Of a stretch of 64,000 nt of DNA, positions 32,584 to 53,180 are shown piece after piece. The notes below the pieces were generated by a model that saw only the letters and a list, made by a program, of their open reading frames with translations, was not told where the DNA came from and did no database searches. The number at the start of each line of letters is the position of its first letter. The stretch's first letter is position 1. Source of the DNA: Acidobacteriota bacterium (lineage in GTDB: Bacteria; Acidobacteriota; Blastocatellia; Pyrinomonadales; Pyrinomonadaceae); assembly GCA_003385635.1 (NCBI GenBank), contig QQUY01000001.1:2023001-2087000 (forward strand), read 5' to 3'. The position numbers and the translations under genes were made by a program.

Positions 32584-35439
32584 ATGACCCACAAGCCTTC
32601 ATTCATAGAATCTATCGCCGAGAAGCTAGGCATAATAGAGGATCTCCACCCGGAAGCTTTTGAAGGTCTTCCGAGGCTCACCGAACCGGGCGATCTTACT
32701 AACTACCCGCCGCCGGACAAATGGGACGATTGGACCGAGTACGAAGCAAAGAGCGGTCTGAAGCGCGAGAGGCGCAACTATCAGATAGTCCCAACCTCCT
32801 GCTTCAACTGCGAAGCGGGATGCGGCCTCCTTTCCTATATCGACAAGGAAACGATGGAGGTCCGAAAATTCGAGGGCAATCCATACCACCCGGGCAGCCG
32901 CGGCAGGAACTGTGCAAAGGGTCCTGCGACTATCAACCAGATCAACGACGTCGACCGAATTCTTTATCCACTGAAACGCGACGGCGAGCGCGGATCAGGA
33001 AAATGGAAGCGCGTCTCGTGGGACGAGGCCCTTGACGATATCGCATCAAAGATCCGTGAGGCGCTGAAAGAAGACCGCCGCAACGAGGTCGTCTATCATG
33101 TCGGACGTCCGGGCCACGAAGGATTTATGGACCGCGTCCTGCAGTCGTGGGGAGTCGACGGCCACAACAGCCATACCAACATATGCTCCGCGGGCGCGCG
33201 CTTCGGTTACGCGATCTGGCACGGAGCAGATCGTCCCTCGCCCGACCACGCAAACGCTCGTTTTATCCTCCTGATCTCGGCGCACCTGGAGTCGGGCCAT
33301 TATTTCAATCCGCACGCGCAACGCATCATCGAGGGCCTTATGAACGGCGCAAAAATGGCCGTGATGGACCCGAGGCTCTCGAACACCGCTTCGATGGCGG
33401 ACTACTGGATGCCGACCTATCCGGGCAGCGAGGCGGCCGTTCTTCTCGCGATGGCTAAGATCATCCTCGACGAAGGCCTGTACAACCGCGACTTCCTCTA
33501 CAACTGGGTCAACTGGCGTGAAAGCCTCAAAGAGCTCAACCCTTCGGCGGATGTGACGTTCGAGAACTTCATCGAGGAAATGAAGAAGCTTTATGCCGAA
33601 TACACGCCGGAGTTCGCTCAGAAGGAGAGCGGAGCCGATCCGGAGATGATCGTCGATGTCGCGCGGAAGATCGGCGAGGCTGGCTCTCGTTTTTCGACTC
33701 ATAACTGGCGGAGCGCCGGAAGCGGAAACCTGGGAGGCTGGGCGGTCTCTAGATGCCTTCATTTTTTGAACGTGCTTACGGGAAGCGTTGGAACGGTGGG
33801 AGGCACGATGCCTTCGGCGTGGAACAAGTTCAAGCCAAAGGGCTTTTCAACTCCGCCTGCGCAGAAGTTCTGGAATACGCTCCACTTCCCCGACGAGTAC
33901 CCTCTTGCTCATTACGAAATGAGCTTTCTTCTTCCGCATTTCCTGAAAGAGGGCCGTGGAAAACTGGCGGTCTATTTCACACGCGTTTTCAATCCCGTTT
34001 GGACCTACCCTGATGGATTCGTTTGGATGGAGGCGCTTTCGGACGAGTCGAAAGTAGGTTTATCGATCGCTTTAACGCCTACCTGGAACGAGACTGCTTA
34101 CTTTTCGGACTACGTCCTCCCGATGGGCCATTCGAGCGAGCGCCACGACCTGATCAGCTACGAAACGCATTCCGGAAAATGGATAGGTTTCCGCCAGCCT
34201 GTTCTACGTGAGGCAAGACGGAAGATGGGCGAAGAGGTCGAATTCACCTACGAGGCCAACCCGGGCGAGGTGTGGGAAGAGGATGAGTTCTGGATCGAGC
34301 TCTCGTGGCGTATCGATCCGGACGGATCGCTCGGCGTCCGCGAACACTTCAATTCACCGTACCGTCCCGGCGAGAAGATAACCATCGAAGAGTATTACCG
34401 ATTCATTTTCGAGAACACGAAAGGGCTACCGGAAAAGGCGGCAGAGGAGGGACTTGAGCCGCTTGAATACATGCGGAAATATGGTGCCTTTGAGGTCGAA
34501 AGCTCGACCTACGGAGTTCATCTTCACGAGCTATCGGGCGATGTGCTTGAAGGCGCCGAAACGATCAGCGAGACTGGTGAGATACGAAAAGACGGCAAGG
34601 TGATCGGGATCTCGATTGACGGAAAGCCGCACCAGGGATTCGGGACCCCCTCGCGCCGGCAGGAGTTCTTCTCGCAGACTCTGAAAGACTGGGGCTGGCC
34701 GGAGTACAAGACGCCGACTTACATCAAAAGCCACATCCACCGCGAGAACCTGAAGGACGACGAGATCGTTCTCGTCCCAACGTTCCGCCTTCCTACGCTG
34801 ATCCACTCACGCTCCGGAAACGCCAAGTGGCTTGCCGAGATCGCAAACCGCAATCCGCTCTGGATGCACCCGGAAGACGCGAAAAAGTGGGGCGTGAAGA
34901 CGAACGACCTGGTCCGCGTAACGACGGACATCGGCTTTTTTGTTAACAAGGCGTGGGTCACAGAAGGAATGAAACCAGGCGTCGTCGCGTGCTCCCATCA
35001 CCTCGGAAGATGGCGGCGGCCGCAAGACGGATCGAACAACCGTTGGGCTTCGAACCTTGTGAAGATCGAGAACGATGGGAAGGGCGGCTGGAAGATGCGT
35101 GTTGAAGAGAGCATAAAGCGTTCGAAATCTGACGACCCTGATACCGAGCGAATCTTCTGGTCAGACGGCGGCGTTCATCAGAACATCACATTCCCCGTTC
35201 ATCCGGACCCGATCAGCGGAATGCATTGCTGGCATCAGCGCGTCCGTGTCGAGAAGGCTCACGATGACGATCAGTACGGCGATGTTTTTGTGGATACCGA
35301 GAAATCGATGGCGAACTATCGCGAGTGGCTTAAGATGGCGCGTCCCGCTCCGGGCCCCGGCGGTCTTCGAAGACCGCTTTGGTTGGCCAGACCGCTCAGG
35401 CCTGTCGAGGAGATGTTCTATCTCGGAAGTGAATCGTGA
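32584..35439 (+). CDS. Molybdopterin (Mo-bisPGD) oxidoreductase catalytic subunit, PsrA/PhsA/ArrA superfamily, no visible Tat signal
   Basis: TSCFNCEAGCGLLSYI...GRNCAKG [4Fe-4S] motif; SHTNICSAGARFG; C-terminal MopB-binding region (DLVRVTTDIGFFVNKAWVTEGMKPGVVACSHHLGRW). Confidence 0.88.
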   Translation: MTHKPSFIESIAEKLGIIEDLHPEAFEGLPRLTEPGDLTNYPPPDKWDDWTEYEAKSGLKRERRNYQIVPTSCFNCEAGCGLLSYIDKETMEVRKFEGNPYHPGSRGRNCAKGPATINQINDVDRILYPLKRDGERGSGKWKRVSWDEALDDIASKIREALKEDRRNEVVYHVGRPGHEGFMDRVLQSWGVDGHNSHTNICSAGARFGYAIWHGADRPSPDHANARFILLISAHLESGHYFNPHAQRIIEGLMNGAKMAVMDPRLSNTASMADYWMPTYPGSEAAVLLAMAKIILDEGLYNRDFLYNWVNWRESLKELNPSADVTFENFIEEMKKLYAEYTPEFAQKESGADPEMIVDVARKIGEAGSRFSTHNWRSAGSGNLGGWAVSRCLHFLNVLTGSVGTVGGTMPSAWNKFKPKGFSTPPAQKFWNTLHFPDEYPLAHYEMSFLLPHFLKEGRGKLAVYFTRVFNPVWTYPDGFVWMEALSDESKVGLSIALTPTWNETAYFSDYVLPMGHSSERHDLISYETHSGKWIGFRQPVLREARRKMGEEVEFTYEANPGEVWEEDEFWIELSWRIDPDGSLGVREHFNSPYRPGEKITIEEYYRFIFENTKGLPEKAAEEGLEPLEYMRKYGAFEVESSTYGVHLHELSGDVLEGAETISETGEIRKDGKVIGISIDGKPHQGFGTPSRRQEFFSQTLKDWGWPEYKTPTYIKSHIHRENLKDDEIVLVPTFRLPTLIHSRSGNAKWLAEIANRNPLWMHPEDAKKWGVKTNDLVRVTTDIGFFVNKAWVTEGMKPGVVACSHHLGRWRRPQDGSNNRWASNLVKIENDGKGGWKMRVEESIKRSKSDDPDTERIFWSDGGVHQNITFPVHPDPISGMHCWHQRVRVEKAHDDDQYGDVFVDTEKSMANYREWLKMARPAPGPGGLRRPLWLARPLRPVEEMFYLGSES

Positions 35440-35476
35440 ATGGTGAATCGATAATTGTTAATTGAGAATTGTTAAT
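35428..35476. repeat. 7-bp period array (AGTGAAT CGTGAAT GGTGAAT CGATAAT TGTTAAT TGAGAAT TGTTAAT)
   Basis: Seven in-phase units beginning inside the last codons of the Mo subunit gene. Confidence 0.9.
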
Positions 35477-35479
35477 TGG

Positions 35480-35830
35480 CTGTTGTTTAGATCAGGGCTT
35501 GCCCTGCATTCGGGGCAAAGCGCCACCTCGGCAAATTGTTGATCCTCTATCAGTTACCCCCTGCTTCAGCTGGGGGTCCAACGGAAAGTCTCATTCTTCG
35601 CCGGCTTCAGCCGGCTTTTTCTTTAGGGCTGAAGTCCTCGTTTTTTCTTCGACGAGTAGCGGCGGTGTATCCTAGCCGTGCGCTTTAGCGCACGGACCGT
35701 TTCCCCAAACCCCGATCCAGCCGCATAGCGGCGTCATATTTGTAAGTCGCTACGCGACTGGAATGTCATTTCGCCCTTGCTCCGTGGGCTGAAGCCCACG
35801 GCTAGGCTCAGATCATCGCATCGCGATGGG
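35480..35830. repeat. Modular REP-like palindrome block, copy A (modules M1-M2-M3-M4)
   Basis: Shares near-identical modules with 39194-39590, e.g. CCGTGCGCTTTAGCGCACGGACCGTTTCCCCAAACCCCGATCCAGCCGCATAGCGGCGTCAT. Confidence 0.9.
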
Positions 35831-35850
35831 ACCGACTGGAAATTGAATCT

Positions 35851-38800
35851 CTAGAAACTGAACCTGAAACCAAACCTCACGCTTCTCGGGGCCTGAAACC
35901 GGTTGGAGAGGTTGAAGTCACCCCTAACGCCCTGCGAGCCGATGTAATTTTCAACGTACTGCCGCAACCCGCCCCCATTGAACAGGTTGATGTAGACCTG
36001 CCCCTGATCGAGACACGTCGCACAGCCGTTGCTCATCAACAATGAGGAATTGAAACTGGCCGCGCTAATGCTCGTCTGCCGGGCAAGCTCGTTCTCCTCG
36101 TCAAAAACATTCAGAATTTCGGTGGAAAACTCCAGCCGATATCTGTCGATGCTTCCCAGCCGAATCGAATACGATATACGAAAATCGGTCTCGGTGAATG
36201 CCTCGGTCCTGCCAAGATCTCCGCGTTCGTAGAGCACTGAAGTCTCGAGACCGTAAAGCGTGTAGAACGTCGTCAAGGGCGTGCCGCTCTGAGCGGTTGT
36301 GAACCCTGATAGCTGTAGCTGGTTTGTTCTGCCGAAATAGAACGTGTACCCGCCAAATGCCTTTAAGACGTGCGGACGGTCCAAAGGCAATGGCCCGTCG
36401 TCCACATCCCCGTCCGCCGTATATCCCGAAGAAGGCAGATCGAAAATCCGCGTGACATTTGGCGCGATTCGTCCTTGCTCATCGGAGCCTGCAAGTCCCG
36501 AATAGTTTCCACGGAGACTGCTCAAGGTATAGGAGATATCAAAGAAATATCCGTTTGCGTACGACCGCCCAATTCCCACTTCCAGACCGTTGTAAGTTCG
36601 CTTGGGTTTCGGACATTGCAGGCCCGCCGATATCGTCACCTCGCACGGAATGCCTTTTCCGGGATTTGAAATCGAGAATGCCGTGGATCCCTGATTATTG
36701 AACCAGGTGAGATCCTCGATCACATTCTCAATGTCTTTTCGGACGTATCGAGCACGCACCGCAAAACCGCCGTCAAAAACGTGTTCTGCTCCCGTTTCGA
36801 AAACATCGTGACGCGTCGGCCGCAGGTCCGTGTCGATCAAAGGCGGCGGCGGGAACGGATTTGGCTGAAACCCGAAAAAGAGCCCAAGCCGGCAAACCGA
36901 GTAGCCCGTCGGGTTTGAGATCGGACACTCCGACGTGAAGTCATCGGTTGAACTGCCCAGAATGTTCGAATAGGTGTAATCCGTGTACGCAGCGCCCCTC
37001 GACGGAAGGATCTCGAAGTAGTCCCTCGCAAACATACCGAAACCTATGTTTTCGGGCGCGTAGTACCTGAGGCTGTCAAAATATCGCCCGAAGGCAGCGT
37101 AGATCCGGGTCTTTCCGTCCGCGAACGGATCTAGAGCGATTCCGATCCTCGGGCTGATCTTCTCATCCCAGCCAAATTCGATAGCTTCCGTATCAGCGAA
37201 CGCCGGAACATTCTCGGACCCAAATCTGAGTCCTAGATCGAGAGTCACACGGTCGCTTATCTGCCAGGAATCCTGGACGTACAGCGCATGTTCATTGCCG
37301 TTGACGTCCGAACGGTTACCAAACCTCTGTATTAATCCCGAACCCAGATTTCCGTCCGTCGGAGTGATAGGGACAAACGTCGAGATCGGGAGGTTGTAAT
37401 AAAGAACAATGAACCCTGTGTCGATGTAGCCATCTTCGGCTTGACGTTCAAGGCGGTCGTAGTTGTACCCAAAGCGGATTAAGTGCCTTCCTAGTCCTCT
37501 TAGGCCCGCGATACCGGCTTCAGCTGCAAACGAGGTCCGTGACGAAGCATCAGCTCGTTCGGTTGCGTTCGGCCCCGTAGCGAATCCGGGAAAGCAATTC
37601 GAGCCCGGTACATTCTGAGGCTGGCCTGCGGTAGAACAAAGGTACCTTGTTTCGCCGCCGATTCCGTAAGAATCAAGCTTGTCGTTCAGGAACGATCGGC
37701 CTGCCCTTCCGGATAGAAAGAAGTTGTCGTTGACCGACCAAAATACATTCCCGGCGATCAAACTCGAATTGCTCCTCCCGCCCCTTGTCGCAAGAAATTC
37801 AGCGCCGGACAAGCCGTTCCCCGATGGCGGAACACTGAACAGGCCGCTTTCGGGAAAAGGAAGCCCGCCGTCCTGAACTACTGGATTCCAAAGGAATCGC
37901 ACGTCCGCACGAAATCCCCTGAAAGGCGATGCGTCAACTCGCGCAAGCGCGAATTCCCTTTTGACAGTCTGGTCGTATTCGATCGTCTCTAAAACGTTTC
38001 TGTTCTGGAACGGCGTGTCATAGTAGTCGATCGTTCTGGTCGTTTTTTGTATGAGGGGTGAGTAAGAAGCCAGAAATACTAGCTTTTCTTTTATCAGCGG
38101 ACCGCTGACAAACCCGTGTGGGAAGTAGCCGTTCGTTTCGTCCTTGTTTGGCGTGAAGTATTCGACCTGTCCCGGACTCGTACCAAAAGCGTTCAGGATC
38201 GGACGGGCGTCCCCGCTAAGAGATCCCGGCGAGAACGACAACCCTAGATCGGCGTGCCAGTCAGAAGTCCCACCTCTGGTGATCACGTTTATACTGCCGC
38301 CGAGCGAGCCCGGGAATCTCGCCGCGGGCTCTCTCGATACGACACTCACTTCCTGAAGAAGCGAAAGCGGGAGGTCGTAGTTCACATTGAATTCCCCGGT
38401 TACCGGATTGGTCACTTCGTGGCCGTCGATATAGATCGTGTTGTCGGGCTGAGTTGACCCGTCGATCGATATCCCGCCGGCCAAGATTTCGTCGCGCGTG
38501 GAAGGCGCAGTGTCGAGGAGAGATCTGTATGAGGGCGAGGAAGGGAGACGCCCGCCCTGGGTACTCCAAACCGTCGAAGCTGGCTTCGTCGAGTCTCCAG
38601 GAGAGACATTATAGTCAATGGTCGCAGCATCCGGCCCTAGAAATACAAATGCATCTTTCATCGAACCGGAAACCACAAGCACTGTCGTCCACCAAGGTTG
38701 GAATCCGTTCGCATCAGCTTCAACTCGATACAGGCCAACCGGAACGTCTGTGAACTCGGCTATCCCTTTGCTGTCAGTATCGCCGTAAACTGAGAGTGGT

Positions 38801-38982
38801 ACTGATTTCGCCTCAGGAAGGAGCCTCACGGTCGCACCTGGTATCGGCGCACCCTGAAGATCCATTACATTTACAGCAACTCGCCCCGTCGTCGCCTGGC
38901 CATGGGCGGCGATCACTGAAAATGAAGCACACGTGATTGCAATAAGAATCGTAACAGCGACAACTCGATAATCCCGCATCAT
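35851..38982 (-). CDS. TonB-dependent receptor with N-terminal carboxypeptidase-regulatory-like domain (Oar-like)
   Basis: Signal peptide; VMDLQGAPIPGATVRLLPEAKS...VPVGLYRVEADANGFQ; plug/barrel, C-terminal aromatic RFGFRFSF. Confidence 0.9.
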   Translation of the reverse strand: MMRDYRVVAVTILIAITCASFSVIAAHGQATTGRVAVNVMDLQGAPIPGATVRLLPEAKSVPLSVYGDTDSKGIAEFTDVPVGLYRVEADANGFQPWWTTVLVVSGSMKDAFVFLGPDAATIDYNVSPGDSTKPASTVWSTQGGRLPSSPSYRSLLDTAPSTRDEILAGGISIDGSTQPDNTIYIDGHEVTNPVTGEFNVNYDLPLSLLQEVSVVSREPAARFPGSLGGSINVITRGGTSDWHADLGLSFSPGSLSGDARPILNAFGTSPGQVEYFTPNKDETNGYFPHGFVSGPLIKEKLVFLASYSPLIQKTTRTIDYYDTPFQNRNVLETIEYDQTVKREFALARVDASPFRGFRADVRFLWNPVVQDGGLPFPESGLFSVPPSGNGLSGAEFLATRGGRSNSSLIAGNVFWSVNDNFFLSGRAGRSFLNDKLDSYGIGGETRYLCSTAGQPQNVPGSNCFPGFATGPNATERADASSRTSFAAEAGIAGLRGLGRHLIRFGYNYDRLERQAEDGYIDTGFIVLYYNLPISTFVPITPTDGNLGSGLIQRFGNRSDVNGNEHALYVQDSWQISDRVTLDLGLRFGSENVPAFADTEAIEFGWDEKISPRIGIALDPFADGKTRIYAAFGRYFDSLRYYAPENIGFGMFARDYFEILPSRGAAYTDYTYSNILGSSTDDFTSECPISNPTGYSVCRLGLFFGFQPNPFPPPPLIDTDLRPTRHDVFETGAEHVFDGGFAVRARYVRKDIENVIEDLTWFNNQGSTAFSISNPGKGIPCEVTISAGLQCPKPKRTYNGLEVGIGRSYANGYFFDISYTLSSLRGNYSGLAGSDEQGRIAPNVTRIFDLPSSGYTADGDVDDGPLPLDRPHVLKAFGGYTFYFGRTNQLQLSGFTTAQSGTPLTTFYTLYGLETSVLYERGDLGRTEAFTETDFRISYSIRLGSIDRYRLEFSTEILNVFDEENELARQTSISAASFNSSLLMSNGCATCLDQGQVYINLFNGGGLRQYVENYIGSQGVRGDFNLSNRFQAPRSVRFGFRFSF

Positions 38983-39133
38983 GAGATCTCCAATCTGAAG
39001 ACTAAGAGCCCTATTTCCGAGTTTTCGGATTTTTTACGGCGTTTCGTTCAGAATCGGGGAGATCCAAAGCCGTAAACGGGGAGTTTGCAACGTTAGCCGG
39101 ATTGATGTGCAAAGAGCGAGCCAGAAGCTTGTT

Positions 39134-39189
39134 AGTGAATTGAGAATTGGGAATTGGGAATTGAGAATGGTGAATTGTTAATTGTGATT
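39134..39189. repeat. 7-bp period array, 8 units (AGTGAAT TGAGAAT TGGGAAT TGGGAAT TGAGAAT GGTGAAT TGTTAAT TGTGATT)
   Basis: In-phase heptamers; same unit family as 35428-35476. Confidence 0.9.
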
Positions 39190-39193
39190 TGGG

Positions 39194-39590
39194 TGTTGTT
39201 TAGATCAGGACTTGCCGTGTATTCGGCACAAAAAGCCATGTCGGCAGACTATTGATTCCCCATCAATTGCCCCTCGCTTTAGCGGGGGGATCGTTGGCGC
39301 ATCCCCAAAAGCAGCCGGCTTTAGCCGGCACTCTCCGGGGCTAAAGCCCCGTGTTCTATATCGTCCGTCTTCCATCCCCCGGCTAAAGCCTGGGGCAACT
39401 GATGTTGTTCGCCCGTGCTCCGTGGGCTGAAGCCCACGGCTAAACTCAGATAATCGCTACGCGATGGGTATTCAAGATCTTCTTCGGTGGTTCTCTTCGA
39501 CGCGTAGCGGCGGTGTTTCTTAGCCGTGCGCTTTAGCACACGGACCGTTTCCCCAAACCCCGATCCAGCCGCATAGCGGCGTCATTTCCC
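39194..39590. repeat. Modular REP-like palindrome block, copy B (modules M1-M2-M4-M3)
   Basis: Same modules as copy A with the last two in swapped order. Confidence 0.88.
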
Positions 39591-39636
39591 AATAAGTCGC
39601 TACACTGCCAACGAGTCCCTATAGACGCAGGATTTT

Positions 39637-41853
39637 CTAAGAAACCGCTGGTCGCTGCGGATTCGGCCAACGATCTGCCAAACCTGGATTTCCGTGAGAT
39701 CCAACTGTGAATCCGGTGTTGAGCAACTCTGCAACCTCGGATAACGCCAATGGCTTCGAGAAAAGGTACCCTTGTCCGAACTCGCATCCCAAAGCCCGCA
39801 AGTGGTCCATCTGATCAGCGGTTTCGATCCCTTCAGCGATCACGTCCAGATCCAGGGTTTTTGCCATCGCCACGATCGTGGCCACGAGTTTCCCGTTTCC
39901 TGTCTCACTGCCGATCCCAGATACGAACGAACGGTCGATCTTTAGTGTCGATACCGGAAACCGGTGAAGATAGCTCAGTGAAGAATATCCGGTTCCGAAG
40001 TCGTCGATCGATACGCGAACGCCCATCCCGCGTATCCTCATCAGCGCCTCGATGGCTGTCTCGGCATTGTCCATTACCGCGCTTTCCGTGATCTCAAGCT
40101 TCAATTGGGAAGCCGCAATCCCGGTCGAATCGAGCACTTCCTTAATATGTTCCAGTATGTCCGGATCCGCGAAATGCCTGCCCGACAAGTTGACACTGAT
40201 AAAGAGCGGAGAATCGGGTAGATACTCTTGTGTCCAATCCGCAGTGCGTTGACAAGCCTCTTTAAGGATCCATCGTGTCAGCGGTACGATAAGGCCCGTA
40301 GATTCGCAGACAGGCACAAACTCGACAGGCGAAACGAACCCTCTAACCGGATGGTTCCACCGGACAAGCGCTTCTAGGCCGCTGATAGCGAGAGTTTCCA
40401 GATCGACTATCGGCTGATAGTTAAGCATGAGTTCGTTGTTTTCGATCGCCTGACGCACGTCCGTTTCTATCTCGAGTTGTTTCACCGCGTACTCGTGCAT
40501 CGCTTTGTCGAACACCACGAAGGGTTTCTTGGATTCCTTTGCGTGATACATAGCTATGTCCGAGTCCCGGATGACCTCCTCGGCACTGTCGTACCCACCT
40601 TCGCAGATAACTATCCCGATACTCACTCCAGTGTAGATCTGCTTTTCGTCGATCTCTACCGGACGTGCTATCGCTTCAGCTATGGAGGAAGCGAACGATT
40701 CGGCAGCCTCGTACGACTCCGGTCGCTCGAGGATCACGCCGAACTCGTCGCCTCCTAAGCGAGAGACCACTTTCCTACCGCATTCAAGAGTTTCGAGGCG
40801 GTTCGCGATCCGTTTCAGATACTGGTCGCCGAACGAATGGCCGAAGCTGTCGTTAATCCTTTTGAACCGGTTCAGATCCAGGAACAGGACCGCAAAATGT
40901 TTTCCGGTACCTGACCGGCGGGAAGCCAGCAGTTCGCCGATACGTTTTCTGAAGTAATTCCGGTTCGGAAGGCCGGTCAACGAATCGTGAAACGCGGCGT
41001 GCCGGAATTTTTCCCTGCTCTTTCGCAGCGCGACCTCGGCCTTGTCCTTTTGTGCGACGTGATGTTCCAGTTCCTCGACGTGCCTTTCGGCTTGTTCCGC
41101 TCTTTCCCTTTCTACCTGCTCGGCTTTGGCCGAAGTCTTCTTGACGTCGGTAACGTACCGCCAGAAGGTGAAGTAGATGAGTCCGGCAGTCGCGAGCCCG
41201 ATGCCCACCAAGAGGGAATTGAAACTATAGATCGCAGTAGCAATGAGACCGGCGAAAAATGCTGCGGTCAAATACAGAATCAGGCCGTTCAGACAATTGA
41301 GATACCAGACTTCCCAGAGCGACCGTCCAGTCTTCAGGGACGTAAACAGAGTGACAAGAACAGAGTTCGTAAGAAAGAGCGTCAGTGCTAAAAATGCTAG
41401 CGTGACGGCCAGGCCGGAGGCGTCGCCGGCGCTGGTCAAAACTTCGGGCGCTCCGATGATCAGTTCTGCGGCCTTTACGGTTGCATAAGTCGAGATCGCG
41501 GCGATCGCGCCATTGAGCAGAATCGTCCGGGTTGTAATGTTGATCCCGCGCTTCTTGAAACTTGCTGATGCTGTGATCGATTCAGCGAAAGCCAGGAGGG
41601 TGGCTATCTCGAGGCCATAGAGAATGATAGCCAGAAAGACCAGTATGTCCGATACGGTGATGTGTACTTTCACCCTGGGTAGCTGGATCTGGGCAAAGGT
41701 ACTGAATATCAAAGTTGCCGAGACTATGACGAACAAACGTCCGTCGACGGAAGCTACCGGAAACGAGTACACGGATGCCCCGAGCGCCGCGAGAGAGAAT
41801 GCGAACGCCCCGATATAGGCAATGTCTAGTCGATTCTTCAATCTGTCTTTCAC
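39637..41853 (-). CDS. Membrane-anchored GGDEF-EAL protein
   Basis: RLGGDEFGVIL GGDEF; SGLEALVRWNHPVRG EAL-type domain; DDFGTGYSSLSYLHRFP; N-terminal TM segments. Confidence 0.94.
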   Translation of the reverse strand: MKDRLKNRLDIAYIGAFAFSLAALGASVYSFPVASVDGRLFVIVSATLIFSTFAQIQLPRVKVHITVSDILVFLAIILYGLEIATLLAFAESITASASFKKRGINITTRTILLNGAIAAISTYATVKAAELIIGAPEVLTSAGDASGLAVTLAFLALTLFLTNSVLVTLFTSLKTGRSLWEVWYLNCLNGLILYLTAAFFAGLIATAIYSFNSLLVGIGLATAGLIYFTFWRYVTDVKKTSAKAEQVERERAEQAERHVEELEHHVAQKDKAEVALRKSREKFRHAAFHDSLTGLPNRNYFRKRIGELLASRRSGTGKHFAVLFLDLNRFKRINDSFGHSFGDQYLKRIANRLETLECGRKVVSRLGGDEFGVILERPESYEAAESFASSIAEAIARPVEIDEKQIYTGVSIGIVICEGGYDSAEEVIRDSDIAMYHAKESKKPFVVFDKAMHEYAVKQLEIETDVRQAIENNELMLNYQPIVDLETLAISGLEALVRWNHPVRGFVSPVEFVPVCESTGLIVPLTRWILKEACQRTADWTQEYLPDSPLFISVNLSGRHFADPDILEHIKEVLDSTGIAASQLKLEITESAVMDNAETAIEALMRIRGMGVRVSIDDFGTGYSSLSYLHRFPVSTLKIDRSFVSGIGSETGNGKLVATIVAMAKTLDLDVIAEGIETADQMDHLRALGCEFGQGYLFSKPLALSEVAELLNTGFTVGSHGNPGLADRWPNPQRPAVS

Positions 41854-42049
41854 CGGAAGAAGGACCGATACGGATTGAGAGCAGGAACTGGATTGAATGA
41901 AAAAGTGACGTGGCGAGGGGACGGCCGTATGGGGTCGTGGCCGGGAATTGCTTCCTGAATAAGTATATGGAATTACAGGCCTTTATGTCCAGAGAATTAC
42001 TCCTGAGGACGTTGCCCGACTTTCTGTAGGAAGGAAGAAAGCATAAAGG

Positions 42050-42088
42050 AAAGGACCACGCAGGTGTAACCCTTCGTGGTCCTTTTTA
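42050..42088. terminator. Terminator-like hairpin downstream of subtilase
   Basis: AAAGGACCACG-loop-CGTGGTCCTTTTT; T-tract favours + strand, but it lies between two - strand genes. Confidence 0.65.
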
Positions 42089-42111
42089 AGCGGTTGCGAG
42101 CAGTTGCGTTC

Positions 42112-43605
42112 TTATCTCATATGGCTTGAGTTGTCTCCCGCCACCATCGGACTTGAACTGCCAAACGTCGTGTCGCTCATCAACATTCCGTCGCTCATCA
42201 GCATTCCATCGCTCATCAGCATTCCGTCACTGAGGAGCATGCCGTCACTCATAAGCATTCCGGTGCCAAAAGACTCGCTCCAGTCGTAGAACAACACGCC
42301 GTCGCTTATCAGCATTCCGTCGCTTATCAGCATTCCGTCGCTCATCAGCATTCCATCACTCATCAGCATTCCGTCACTGATAAGCATTCCGTCGCTGAGG
42401 AGCATTCCATCGCTCAACAGCATCCCGAGCCCGTAGACCTTCTGGTAGTTCGTGATGAGTTTGGTACTTTGGATCCAGCCTTTGTCGACAATGATTCCTT
42501 GCGACCAGAGCACGGTTTCACCTTCGATCTCGGACTCCTGCACCGGCATCGACGTGAGCATCGGGTAGTTTAATGAGGTCGAGTTCCCTATACCGCGCTT
42601 TACCAGCTTCGCGAGCCGAATCGACCCCTCAATGTTCAGTAGACCCGCACCCTGCTCAAGATGATTCGCTCCGTGAACCGGCTGAGCCGTGTACTGGAGG
42701 ATCATCTTCACCATATTTGGCGTCAGATCGGGATTCGCCTGAAGCATCAGAGCTACCGCTCCGCTGACGATCGGCGTCGACATTGATGTGCCGCTCAGGT
42801 ACATCTTGGTAGTCGAGTTGAGAAGATCGTTGCTGACGCGCAGTTCCGGATAGTCCCTGAACAGCTTGCTGTGCTTGTCTGCGGACGAGATGATCTTGTT
42901 GCCCGGCGCGACGAGGTCCGGCTTGATCAGATGATCGTAAATCCTGGTACCTTCCGAATCCACGTATGACGACCGGGTGGGACCGCGCGAACTGAATGTC
43001 GTGATCCCGTCGTCGCTCCTTGCGTCAGTACCGTAAGTGTTTGCCGCTCCCACCGTGATAGCGGTAGGGTCATTGCCAGGGGCGTGGATAGCGCCGTAGA
43101 GTTTCTGGCCTTCAGAACCTCTCCCGTTGTTGCCCGCTGCTGCAACTACGACAATTCCGGCAGACGTCAATTTTCTTACCGCACGGCAGATCGGATCGTT
43201 ACGCCATGTTTCGATTGCGGGCGTACCCAGGCTCAGATTCACGACTTTGATGTTGTATCGGCCGCGGTTGGCATATATCCACTCAAGAGCGTTGATCAGG
43301 TCCGCGGTCCGCCCAGTGCCCCTCGAATTCAGGACCTTCAGATTTATGACGTCCGCCTTTGTCGCGATCCCCTCGTATTCGTTCATTTCACCGACGTTAC
43401 CGTTCCCACCTACCGCAAGCGCGGCTACGTGGGTTCCGTGTCCGAACTCGTCGTCGAGTTCACTGTCGCTAGTGAAATCCTTGCTGTACTTGAATCTGCT
43501 GCTAAGAAGGCCGCCGGAAAATGATGAGTGTCCACGGTGAATTCCGGAATCCAGGATCGCGATCCCGATCCCCTTACCGTCATAGTTCCCCGACACACTT
43601 CTCAT
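42112..43605 (-). CDS. S8 family serine peptidase catalytic domain ending in hexapeptide repeat; lacks its own signal peptide
   Basis: GIAILDSGIHRGH (Asp), EFGHGTHVAAL (His), LSGTSMSTPIVSGAVAL (Ser). Confidence 0.9.
   Translation of the reverse strand: MRSVSGNYDGKGIGIAILDSGIHRGHSSFSGGLLSSRFKYSKDFTSDSELDDEFGHGTHVAALAVGGNGNVGEMNEYEGIATKADVINLKVLNSRGTGRTADLINALEWIYANRGRYNIKVVNLSLGTPAIETWRNDPICRAVRKLTSAGIVVVAAAGNNGRGSEGQKLYGAIHAPGNDPTAITVGAANTYGTDARSDDGITTFSSRGPTRSSYVDSEGTRIYDHLIKPDLVAPGNKIISSADKHSKLFRDYPELRVSNDLLNSTTKMYLSGTSMSTPIVSGAVALMLQANPDLTPNMVKMILQYTAQPVHGANHLEQGAGLLNIEGSIRLAKLVKRGIGNSTSLNYPMLTSMPVQESEIEGETVLWSQGIIVDKGWIQSTKLITNYQKVYGLGMLLSDGMLLSDGMLISDGMLMSDGMLMSDGMLISDGMLISDGVLFYDWSESFGTGMLMSDGMLLSDGMLMSDGMLMSDGMLMSDTTFGSSSPMVAGDNSSHMR
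42172..42426 (-). repeat. 18-bp tandem repeat encoding M-[LI]-[LMI]-S-D-G hexapeptides: 5 + 7 units split by a 39-bp insert
   Basis: Units such as GTCGCTCATCAGCATTCC on + strand, read as ...MLMSDGMLISDG... on - strand. Confidence 0.95.
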
Positions 43606-44663
43606 GCTGAGTACCCGGTCGTATCCTCGATATGACCGAAGGAGACCATCTCGTGGTCGAGCGAAAGGTGTCTGGCGGACCGATCAGCGGCAATTGTCTG
43701 CGCAAGCGAAAGCGGTAGGTTGAGCTCAAGAACCCCCATATTTGCAGCCTCGCTTCTGATCTCGATGCCGTGACGGCCAAGCAGGTCCCTGAGAGATCCC
43801 GAGCGCACATCGTCGGCCTGCAATATCACGCTGACGATTTCATTGGGTGACCGCTTAGCGATCGCCTCGCTCAGATCCGGAGAGATCTTTGACCCTACGA
43901 ACGGATCTTCGAGCGTTTCACGATCTGCCTCAACATCCACCTTTGTGAAACGTTTTCTGAGGATCGGATCGGTCGCGACGATCCTTTCAAAATCCGCATT
44001 TGTACCAGAGGTTATGACGATCAAGGATCCTGACTCGACCGCTTCTCTCAGGCTTTTAGCTGCGGCTGCACCCATCGAAGGATTCACCCGCGCGAATGCG
44101 TCGAGCTCGAAGACATCCAGAATGCCCTTCTCTCTGCCCGACGTGATCGATTCGACAGCCTGTTTGACAAGCGCGTCGAATACTGCCGGATCTCCGTCTG
44201 AATCTTTGACCAATGCCGGTATATCAAGCCTGTACAGCCGTTTCTTTTTGAGCTTTGAAGGCACCCTCTCGCTCGAGATCCGATAAGCGAGATTATCGAC
44301 GATCGCCGAATGGCTGAGGTAATACTCGCCAACCAGGACGGCATTCCCGGATACGGACCTGGAAAGCACCGACGCAACGTCGGCGACCTCCTTGTCGAGC
44401 CCGTTGGCGTTCGCCAGAGCACTTGACTCCGCGAGCGACGTCACATCGATCAGGTACCCGGACTTCTTTGCGCCGTCTGCACCTTCAGCGGAGTCAGCCG
44501 CACGCATTTGTGAATTTACCGGAATTCCAGACCAGCTTAAGGCCAGCACAAGAACACCGAGAACTGCGAGGAAAGATAAAGCTCTTGTTTTCATATGCGA
44601 CTCACTCCCAAGGAGTTTCTGAACGTCATTTGGAACTGTTAGGGTCCGCACACCAATGGGCAA
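43602..44663 (-). CDS. Signal peptide plus propeptide-like N-terminal part of the S8 peptidase, separate frame, ATGA overlap with downstream ORF
   Basis: MKTRALSFLAVLGVLVLALSWSGIPVNSQ signal; ends ...AADRSARHLSLDHEMVSFGHIEDTTGYSA*. Likely start at MKTRAL (internal Met), about 44594. Confidence 0.8.
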   Translation of the reverse strand: MPIGVRTLTVPNDVQKLLGSESHMKTRALSFLAVLGVLVLALSWSGIPVNSQMRAADSAEGADGAKKSGYLIDVTSLAESSALANANGLDKEVADVASVLSRSVSGNAVLVGEYYLSHSAIVDNLAYRISSERVPSKLKKKRLYRLDIPALVKDSDGDPAVFDALVKQAVESITSGREKGILDVFELDAFARVNPSMGAAAAKSLREAVESGSLIVITSGTNADFERIVATDPILRKRFTKVDVEADRETLEDPFVGSKISPDLSEAIAKRSPNEIVSVILQADDVRSGSLRDLLGRHGIEIRSEAANMGVLELNLPLSLAQTIAADRSARHLSLDHEMVSFGHIEDTTGYSA

Positions 44664-45185
44664 TCCGTATGCCGCTATTTCAAGGTCTCACAACCCCTTT
44701 GTTTAGTGCGTTTCGTGAAGTTTCGGCCGAGAAGCATTTAGCGGTTAGGTCAAAACCTGCCTGATTGACCGGGTGAATCATTCAATCTGACCGAGAGAAC
44801 GCGTCCCGTTTATCTCGAGCCTGGATTTAGAAGTTCTTCAATGTGGGAATAGAATGTAGGCGGATCTGCCGTTTCAGCTTGGGATTTCGCGGCTCTACGG
44901 CAATGCTGTGCGGTAAGCCTCCGGCTGACCGTAATTCGTCCAGCACGACTACTCTGCGCCGCGTAGCGGCGTGATCTCCTTGTAAGTCGCTACGCGATGC
45001 AGTCTCAACAGAATCGCGATCAACCTGCCCCTTTCCCCAATAATTAGAAATATCCTCGTGAATTGCTCTATAATGTCGCCCTACACCGATCAGAGGCGCA
45101 AGCGCCCGGGTTCTTTGAATTGACGAGCAAGGTTGGCCGCTCCAAATGCGGCCGGGCAGGATCAGGCAAAAGGGGTCACCACCGA

Positions 45186-46922
45186 ATGGATAATGGTTCT
45201 ATGAAACACGAGCCCTTCGTGTCGAGGGACATCATCGACCGAAAATGGGTAGATATTAATGTGCCCTGCCAGTCCGCCTGTCCTATCAGGACGGACATTC
45301 CGGGTTACATCGAAGCGATAATCCACGAGAATTACGAAAAAGCTTACGAGATAAACCGCCTGGATAACGTCTTTCCCGGCGTCCTGGGAAGGGTGTGCCA
45401 CAGGCCCTGCGAACCGGTTTGCCGACACGGCCGAGAAGGACTAGGGGACCCGGTCCAGATCTGTTTTCTCAAAAGGTCTGCAGCCGATTTCGGGATGGAG
45501 GACCTGCGCCCGCAGATCGCTCCGAACGGCAAAACGATCTGCGTGATCGGAGCCGGCCCGGCCGGTCTCACCGCCGCGAACGACCTCGCATTGCTCGGAT
45601 ATTCAGTAACAGTTATCGAACAGTATGAAGAACCCGGCGGAATGATGCGCTACGGCATCCCGCAATTCCGACTTCCCGCCGACATCGTCCGCACAGACAT
45701 CAAATCCATCACGGACCTGGGAGTCGAGATAAAATGCAACACCCGCATCGATTCCTGGGAAGCACTCGACGATCTGAAAGCGGAATACGACGCCGTGATC
45801 GTTTCGGGAGGCTGCATGCTGCCGACGATGTTCGGTCTGCCCGGAAAGGACGCCGAAGGCGTGTTCTGGGGCCTTGATTTCATGATGCAGGCGAACCGCG
45901 ACGAGCTCGAGGTCCTGCCGAAGAAGACGGTAGTCATAGGCGGAGGCTTCACCGCGCTCGATTGTGCGAGAACTTCATATCGGATCGGAGCCGAGGCGAC
46001 GACTATCGCGTATCGCAGGACGATCGAGTTTATGCAGTTCTCCGGCGAGGAAGAACTTCATCATCTGGCTGAGGAAGAGATCGACCTCCAGCTTCAGGTT
46101 TCGCCTGTCGAAATAGTCGTTGAAGACGGAAAGGCTGTCGGGATAAAGCTGATAAAGAACGAGATCGGCGAAGGCGGAAAGATGTCCGCTGTCGAAGGTT
46201 CCGAATACGTGATCGAGGCAGACACGGTCATCCTCGCGATCGGCCAGACGGCCGAGGAACTCGAAGGCGTCGATGTAAAAGACGAGTCAGTGCCTGAAAG
46301 CAAAGGCAATCTTTTCATGGCGGGCGATTTCCGGAACGGATCCGGAACCGTGATCGGGGCTTGTGCGGACGGCAGAAAAGTCGGCCAGAAGGTCCACGAA
46401 ATGCTTTCGGGAGAGAAATTCGAAGAGATCGTCGAGATCTCCGAGGTCCCGATCAAGTCACTTCCGAGAAACCGCGAGCACGATTTCATTCCTCCCGAAA
46501 AGATGCCTACGATCCCGGTCGCCGAACGCACACAGACCGCGGAAGTGGAAACCGGTCTCCTGAATGAGCAAGCGCACACCGAAGCTCATCGATGCTACCT
46601 CTGTCATTACAACTTCCAGATCGATCTCGACCGATGCATCTACTGCATGAAGTGCATTGACGTGATGCCCGTCGACTGCATCCATCTCGCAAAAGACATC
46701 ACTCTCGGCGAGGACGGAAGCATCAATTACGAGAGGACGAAGAACTGGGAAGAGGTCGAAGCGATCGCGATCGACAATGACGAGTGCATACGCTGCGGCA
46801 ACTGCCTAAACGCCTGCCCGGTACACTGCATATCTGTTTCGAAATATCACCTGAAAACAGTTGTCCAGCCGGTGCAGATCACAAGAGAACGGCCTGAGGC
46901 CGGAACGGAGGTGGCTGCCTGA
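45186..46922 (+). CDS. GltD-like NAD(P)/FAD oxidoreductase with C-terminal 2x[4Fe-4S] ferredoxin domain
   Basis: CQSACPIRTDIPGYIEAI, VIGAGPAGLTAANDLALLGYSVTVIEQYEEPGGMMRYGIP, C-terminal CIYCMKCIDVMPVDC and CIRCGNCLNACPVHC. ORF-track start at 45063 judged too far upstream. Confidence 0.9.
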   Translation: MDNGSMKHEPFVSRDIIDRKWVDINVPCQSACPIRTDIPGYIEAIIHENYEKAYEINRLDNVFPGVLGRVCHRPCEPVCRHGREGLGDPVQICFLKRSAADFGMEDLRPQIAPNGKTICVIGAGPAGLTAANDLALLGYSVTVIEQYEEPGGMMRYGIPQFRLPADIVRTDIKSITDLGVEIKCNTRIDSWEALDDLKAEYDAVIVSGGCMLPTMFGLPGKDAEGVFWGLDFMMQANRDELEVLPKKTVVIGGGFTALDCARTSYRIGAEATTIAYRRTIEFMQFSGEEELHHLAEEEIDLQLQVSPVEIVVEDGKAVGIKLIKNEIGEGGKMSAVEGSEYVIEADTVILAIGQTAEELEGVDVKDESVPESKGNLFMAGDFRNGSGTVIGACADGRKVGQKVHEMLSGEKFEEIVEISEVPIKSLPRNREHDFIPPEKMPTIPVAERTQTAEVETGLLNEQAHTEAHRCYLCHYNFQIDLDRCIYCMKCIDVMPVDCIHLAKDITLGEDGSINYERTKNWEEVEAIAIDNDECIRCGNCLNACPVHCISVSKYHLKTVVQPVQITRERPEAGTEVAA

Positions 46923-49575: not shown

Positions 49576-49700
49576 GTTCGCGTAGCGAACCCGTATCTTA
49601 GCCGTGGCCTTCAGGCTTCAAGAAGTACTGAGAAGAGAGTACTGAGGACAGAGTGTCGCGTTCGCGTAGCGAACCCGTATCTTAGCCGTGGCCTTCAGGC
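49576..49700. repeat. Two identical 41-bp REP-like units (49576-49616, 49660-49700) bracketing a 7-bp array (49624-49651)
   Basis: GTTCGCGTAGCGAACCCGTATCTTAGCCGTGGCCTTCAGGC occurs twice exactly; AGTACTG AGAAGAG AGTACTG AGGACAG in between. Confidence 0.9.
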
Positions 49701-49754
49701 CACGGAAATCGAGAATAGAATATATTGAGTCGCGTAGCGACGTCTCTCTTCAGT

Positions 49755-52870: not shown

Positions 52871-53180
52871 GAATCGGAGCGCACGCGTCCCGCGTGAAGC
52901 GGAAGAGGAGAGGGACACAGATGAACACGGATAAGAAAAGATGGATGAATGCGCGTTTGTTAAGCGCCGACTCAGGGCCGTCGCGCGAACTCCAGTTTGC
53001 GCCTTTTTTATTTTGGCATTGGGGACGCGACAAGCTGAAGCTTGTCGGACTGATCGAAAGGTGACGCCGCTACGCGGCTGAATGATCGGGGCGGGCTGTT
53101 ACCGCGGGCTGAAGCCCACGGCAAAGGTACACCGTCGCTTCGCGACATGGAAACTAGAATTCCGTAGTGACAGGCAGTGA

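Follow-up and report, generated by a model that had tools for sequence, protein, structure and literature searches.

The two-hairpin unit Acido-Lenti-1 (RF01687) has been published as a candidate structured RNA (PMC2864571), and the portions of the literature on it that we surveyed make no link to a transposase. TnpA_Y1 transposases of subclass 1.2 are described mostly from Cyanobacteria and Bacteroidetes, and Table 1 of the same work gives 'no' for an associated REP (PMC6006769). The literature searched likewise contains no link between RF01687 and the TIRtrons of Acidobacteria or their TIRYT transposases (PMC3733652).

The window analysed here is a stretch of 64,000 nucleotides from an Acidobacteriota genome (G000, C1:2023001-2087000), to which all plain positions refer. 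A repeat search confirms that two blocks, A and B, enclose a TonB-dependent receptor gene as direct repeats, in both the position and the orientation first proposed for them, and bears out the swap of two modules: M3-M4 in A, M4-M3 in B. The name 'modular REP blocks' is in essence correct, since the blocks are mosaics of dispersed palindromic elements with a REP-like layout, but they are not canonical RAYT-type REPs. We consider it likely that these mosaics consist of (non-autonomous) kin of TnpA_Y1 elements, that the swap came about by differential deletion, and that the receptor lies between the two copies through gain or loss of a 9.5-kb segment. The features of the locus are as follows.

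32584-35439, plus strand: molybdopterin oxidoreductase, the left synteny anchor (Pfam; 93% identical in G004)
35431-35478, plus strand: heptamer tandem array of block A, beginning at the stop codon of the molybdopterin gene (sequence, repeat search, regex)
35479-35547, plus strand: M1 of block A, palindrome GTTTAGATCAGGGCTTGCCCTG with its flank; over 96 nt it matches B at 78%; dispersed family GTTTAGAGCAGCGCTTGCGCTGC
35548-35637, plus strand: M2 of block A, the left part of a MITE-like element with the right end missing; corresponds in alignment to positions 1-90 of the intact copy L164:11197-11342
35648-35737, minus strand: M3 of block A, Acido-Lenti-1-type palindromic unit (RF01687 25.5 bits, E 0.0096, under the 37-bit cut-off)
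35745-35830, plus strand: M4 of block A, complete Acido-Lenti-1-type unit (RF01687 26.0 bits, E 0.007, under the cut-off; DNA fold z -2.9)
35851-38982, minus strand: TonB-dependent receptor (CarboxypepD_reg and OMP_b-brl_4; Pfam)
39134-39191, plus strand: heptamer array of block B (sequence, repeat search, regex)
39192-39260, plus strand: M1 palindrome plus flank, block B (repeat search, alignment to A)
39261-39405, plus strand: complete 145-nt MITE-like element of block B, its inverted termini being CATCARTTGCCCC...GGGGCAACTGATG; matches L164:11197-11342 over its whole length
39409-39468, plus strand: M4 of block B, Acido-Lenti-1-type unit (RF01687 27.1 bits, E 0.0035, under the cut-off)
39495-39585, minus strand: M3 of block B, Acido-Lenti-1-type unit (RF01687 29.9 bits, E 0.00058, under the cut-off)
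39594-39603, plus strand: truncated start (AAGTCGCTAC) of a next plus unit in block B, read as a trace of a deleted M4' (extended alignment)
39637-44663, minus strand: rest of the variable segment, comprising a GGDEF-EAL gene (39637-41853), an S8 protease (42112-43605) and an ORF of no known identity (43602-44663) (Pfam)
44958-44997, plus strand: third relic, an M3 unit end and plus unit start between genes 43602 and 45063; 87.5% to A over 40 nt
45063-46922, plus strand: pyridine-nucleotide oxidoreductase with 4Fe-4S domains, the right synteny anchor (Pfam; directly after the molybdopterin gene in G004)
49662-49706, minus strand: further Acido-Lenti-1-type unit, 81% over 47 nt to M4 of block B
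53062-53144, plus strand: further complete Acido-Lenti-1-type unit, 74% over 84-89 nt to M3 (inverted) and 80-92% over 24-45 nt to M4

The direct repeats fall into three pairs: the heptamers with M1 and the start of M2 (35431-35576 and 39144-39289; 146 nt, 77%), M3 (35643-35737 and 39491-39585; 95 nt, 95%) and M4 (35770-35830 and 39408-39468; 61 nt, 90%). Searched against the whole genome (4.13 Mb), block A retrieves the modules of block B at E = 3e-37, 7e-25 and 8e-17, after which the best match reaches only 7.5e-14; the similarity of A and B is far above chance. The M3 alignment extends to 35643-35753 and 39491-39603 at 90%. M4 of block A reaches left to about 35745 and includes a further small hairpin GTCGCTACGCGAC, which amends the preliminary description. 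M2 is unlike in the two blocks: B carries a complete 145-nt inverted-repeat element, A its left part only. The modules represent at least two element families, whose boundaries are directly visible.

The first family is the MITE-like element. A search of the genome with the copy from block B yields 60 matches, some of them several to a place, and this copy folds as a single long hairpin (z -6.0). Its inverted-repeat ends are fixed and common to an autonomous copy, the same termini bracketing a tnpA_Y1 gene (C1:716364-716702) at L162:9216-9874; the copies in G004 and G006 mostly start at query positions 695-700 and end at 840-846. At the site of the intact copy in L164, the element is missing from G006 and present in rearranged form in G004, with junctions that are not clean. 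Two small elements, each with a TnpA_Y1 (HUH) transposase gene enclosed by inverted palindromic ends, appear to have non-autonomous relatives in the MITE-like element and in the Acido-Lenti-1-type pair; neither an excision nor a footprint was seen.

Blocks A and B correspond from the heptamers through M1 and its flank into the left part of the MITE, with the MITE joined to the M1 flank at the same point, which argues for one ancestral block. Such a block, of the form M1-MITE-M4(+)-M3(-)-M4'(+), would be the parent of both at least for the M1-MITE part. In block A the right end of the MITE is missing and M3 comes next, an arrangement that would arise if the MITE right end and the first M4 were deleted from the ancestral block. 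In block B a complete MITE is followed by M4 and then M3, and the block ends after the first ten bases of another plus unit, as it would after deletion of M4'. The apparent shuffle would then be differential deletion, one per copy, with no shuffling needed. Divergence between the blocks is unequal (M3 95% versus M1 78%; Fisher p = 0.001), so one duplication alone does not fit, and later conversion, local re-insertion or a later arrival of M3 and M4 has to be added. This inequality, the dispersal of every family and the strong local likeness of units in the array at L161 would also suit separate insertions at A and B, with local spreading of units as in that array. We regard such an independent origin of the module order as possible but rather doubtful, as the M1-MITE flank common to A and B marks that insertion as a single event, and M1 and the MITE occur together at no other locus in a search of the genome. 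Differential deletion from a common block is the history that we prefer.

Copy statistics were obtained from whole-genome searches, from a sample of 1.16 Mb spread over the genome and from targeted stretches. M1-type palindromes GTTTAGAGCAGCGCTTGCGCTGC occupy 19 sites in 1.16 Mb; only 2 of the 19 lie within 60 nt of a heptamer array, and therefore M1 and the heptamers are not generally linked. For neither of them is an association with a transposase known. A generic scan for hairpins with stems of 8 or more detects only 69 intergenic hairpins in the 1.16-Mb sample, and the elements are therefore not hyperabundant REPs. Heptamer arrays were also considered as receptor-specific recombination targets and rejected, the arrays being dispersed genome-wide.

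The preliminary description suggested that the receptor could be a cassette exchanged between the blocks, A and B serving as recombination sites for its exchange, excision or insertion as a unit. The direct orientation of the blocks and their similarity of 77-95% are consistent with this, as are the lack of the receptor at the same position in G004 and the fact that in G002 the homologue of gene 45063 has a divergent receptor (49%) as its neighbour. The elements, however, are not enriched at receptors: they cluster at about 50 loci in the genome, mostly by unrelated genes, and a distance of 1 kb or less to one of the approximately 22 receptor genes of the same type is seen for only 2 of 50 (0.53 expected), the present locus being one of the two. 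This is the first of the two findings that the preliminary description had named as grounds for refuting it. No intergenic repeat pairs were found around other receptors (L169-L180) in a scan that covered part of the genome, with receptor and random stretches unequal in number, whereas many similar direct pairs flank or adjoin unrelated genes (for example those of PEPCK, an S49 protease, a methyltransferase and an EamA transporter). All near-identical stretches of A and B are shorter than 100 nt, and the variable segment holds three genes besides the receptor, so that the unit exceeds the 3.1 kb originally supposed. The cassette is improbable on this evidence, and as worded it is unsupported. 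Tandem duplication of a receptor with loss of one copy was rejected as well: pairs of near-equal score exist (C3:660871-668058), and their surroundings are without a repeat pair.

The extent of the variable segment follows from comparison with the closest sister genome, the congener G004, and the difference in synteny is directly observed. About 390 bp separate the molybdopterin gene of G004 from its homologue of 45063, and the interval is without the receptor, the EAL gene, the S8 protease and gene 43602. It opens with a heptamer array and an M1-type palindrome at the position of block A; recognisable M3 and M4 are absent from this intergenic region. The segment by which our species differs from G004 is therefore about 9.5 kb long and contains four genes: the receptor, the GGDEF-EAL gene, the S8 protease and the unknown ORF. 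A similar cluster of the last three is found elsewhere in G001-G003, at 50-56% identity for the EAL and S8 proteins and 25-31% for the third ORF. Relics of M3 and M4 occur at A, at B and at 44958-44997, and repeat relics are found close to each of the segment's two ends.

The interval after the molybdopterin gene differs in content in G002, G003 and G005, which indicates that it is prone to rearrangement. A DUF305-like reading frame follows the gene in these three genomes (read by eye), and in G005 the interval also contains a Y1 gene. Repeat-mediated gain or loss of the 9.5-kb segment is plausible, and its polarity may be either gain by crossover at the repeats or loss in G004. The segment would have taken a route via the repeat-rich intergenic region, and we propose that the receptor stands between two copies of the block because the segment was gained or lost there. 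The receptor itself is probably incidental.

The second family, M3 and M4, leads to the transposases. An Rfam search of the window at a relaxed threshold returns weak matches of RF01687 to all four M3 and M4 units (M3 on the minus and M4 on the plus strand, 25.5-29.9 bits); as the scores are under the curated Rfam cut-off of 37 bits, we call the units Acido-Lenti-1-type and not members of the family. Units above the cut-off exist in the same genome, in a cluster at C3:269-271 kb with up to 52.2 bits, and a TnpA_Y1 gene (C3:270162-270503) sits within this array (L161:14420-16020). The array units, very alike among themselves, share their layout with M3 and M4 (small hairpin, tail, large hairpin, spacer, small hairpin), and M3 of block A has that of the units flanking tnpA.

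The association with tnpA_Y1 genes is directly observed across eleven genomes, in a comparison of 57 Y1 genes with 150 listed RF01687 matches from which most weak Y1 matches of the ten relatives were left out, and in which copies per genome are counted among the matches listed. A listed unit lies within 300 bp of 13 of the 57 Y1 genes, against 0.15 expected under a uniform model that disregards the clustering of units and makes a formal p value indicative only. The nearest unit to the left of a Y1 gene is (-) in 7/7 cases and to the right (+) in 8/10. Close pairs of units outside G038 have the arrangement (-)(+) in 12/20 (p = 0.0009), the same arrangement as the M3-M4 pair of block A.

The motif Y---Q--HH is present in all 10 script-readable ORFs of the 13 RF01687-linked Y1 genes (L245, L252 and L253 being unread), and likewise in three G000 Y1 genes located at other repeats. 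Most linked ORFs also contain DH[IV]H; L246 has DHLH, and in L247 and L250 the script halted at an upstream HYH. Together these are the motifs of TnpA_Y1 subclass 1.2, an assignment by motif as distinct from phylogeny or a subclass profile. Two transposases of the genome itself score above the cut-off of the NCBIfam IS200 model and only 26.8 and 30.5 bits against the RAYT model NF047646, whose cut-off is 80. The label RAYT was rejected on that score, on the form of the Y motif (Y---Q--HH) and on the lack of YIxxNP. GTAG occurs in M3 (GTAGCGGCGG).

On balance we favour the view that Acido-Lenti-1 is not primarily an RNA, and that the two-hairpin unit forms the element ends served by TnpA_Y1 subclass 1.2, the two together making up a REP/RAYT-like system in Blastocatellia that is based on an independent class of transposase. 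The transposase would act on the hairpins in single-stranded DNA. That the hairpins are instead functional sRNAs, or 3'-end or terminator hairpins kept for gene expression, is very improbable: the published candidacy of RF01687 and the folding of M4 and MITE sequences beyond their shuffles speak for it, but the units are found in either orientation, in tandem arrays, in (-)(+) pairs and beside tnpA_Y1 genes, and hairpin substrates in single-stranded DNA would equally conserve palindromes.

If Acido-Lenti-1 units are indeed transposon ends, an RNA motif without known function gains a concrete identity as DNA, an orphan subclass of HUH transposases gains candidate substrates, and a second origin of REP-like repeats becomes testable. 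Order 'shuffles' in intergenic mosaics could come from deletion alone. For the receptor itself these results have little import.

The heptamers resemble the TAACTGA arrays (PMC4679880) in being abundant tandem arrays, but many different heptamers are present here, and they are known from their arrangement in the sequence. TIRtrons are likewise built of a tyrosine transposase gene enclosed by inverted repeats, and these repeats also make up a dispersed family (PMC3733652), a likeness drawn from the published description of TIR and TIRYT. REP/RAYT systems, REPINs and BIMEs share with the present elements the intergenic hairpin units, inverted pairs, multi-family mosaics and a transposase gene in an array of its own units; unlike RAYTs (TnpA_REP, class 2), the transposases here fall far under the family cut-off and are without YIxxNP, and no canonical GTAG foot is established. 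The Acido-Lenti-1 RNA is the same 46-nt two-hairpin unit, catalogued as an sRNA, whereas its behaviour here is that of an end sequence in a mobile-type DNA element. The transposases agree with TnpA_Y1 subclass 1.2 (PMC6006769) in DH[IV]H, Y---Q--HH, a length of about 150 aa and scores above the IS200 cut-off, and the WQ motif is found in the two proteins read from the genome itself. The subclass was published without REP-like structures, whereas the genes described here stand between palindromes of which dispersed copies exist as well.

Module M1 of the repeat blocks flanking the TonB-dependent receptor gene belongs to a palindrome family, GTTTAGAGCAGCGCTTGCGCTGC, dispersed in the source genome, with sites in these stretches among others:

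L106:6573, 10487 and 16179, palindrome sites
L111:13949-14016, palindrome site
L127, palindrome site

In L106 the palindrome sits within a repeat of 110-172 nt, the copies of which lie in direct orientation. Period-7 tandem arrays of at least 35 nt are in strong excess in the 1.16-Mb spread sample of this genome (L101-L158), scanned with coding sequence included: 114 were counted, versus 17 of period 9 and only 1-2 for periods 5, 6, 8, 10 and 11.

Y1 (HUH) transposase genes were located as follows:

L163:5487-6481 (C3:213821) and L163:12903-13864 (C3:221207), two further genes of the source genome, G000
G005:C66:1937-2275, a gene shortly downstream of molybdopterin oxidoreductase

Each of the former has repeats of ~172 nt on either side, which represent a different palindromic family, CCGCTCCGTTAGGAGC. 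The latter occupies the interval where the window genome carries the receptor segment.

Receptor genes also occur in tandem:

G000:C3:660871-664116 and 664813-668058, a pair
G006:C74, a pair

The almost equal scores within these pairs suggest recent duplication.

Acido-Lenti-1 (RF01687) units form an array in another compared genome:

G038:C1:226187-227121, six units, all in one orientation, spaced ~170-205 nt

With its same-orientation units, this is an array type unlike (-)(+) pairs.
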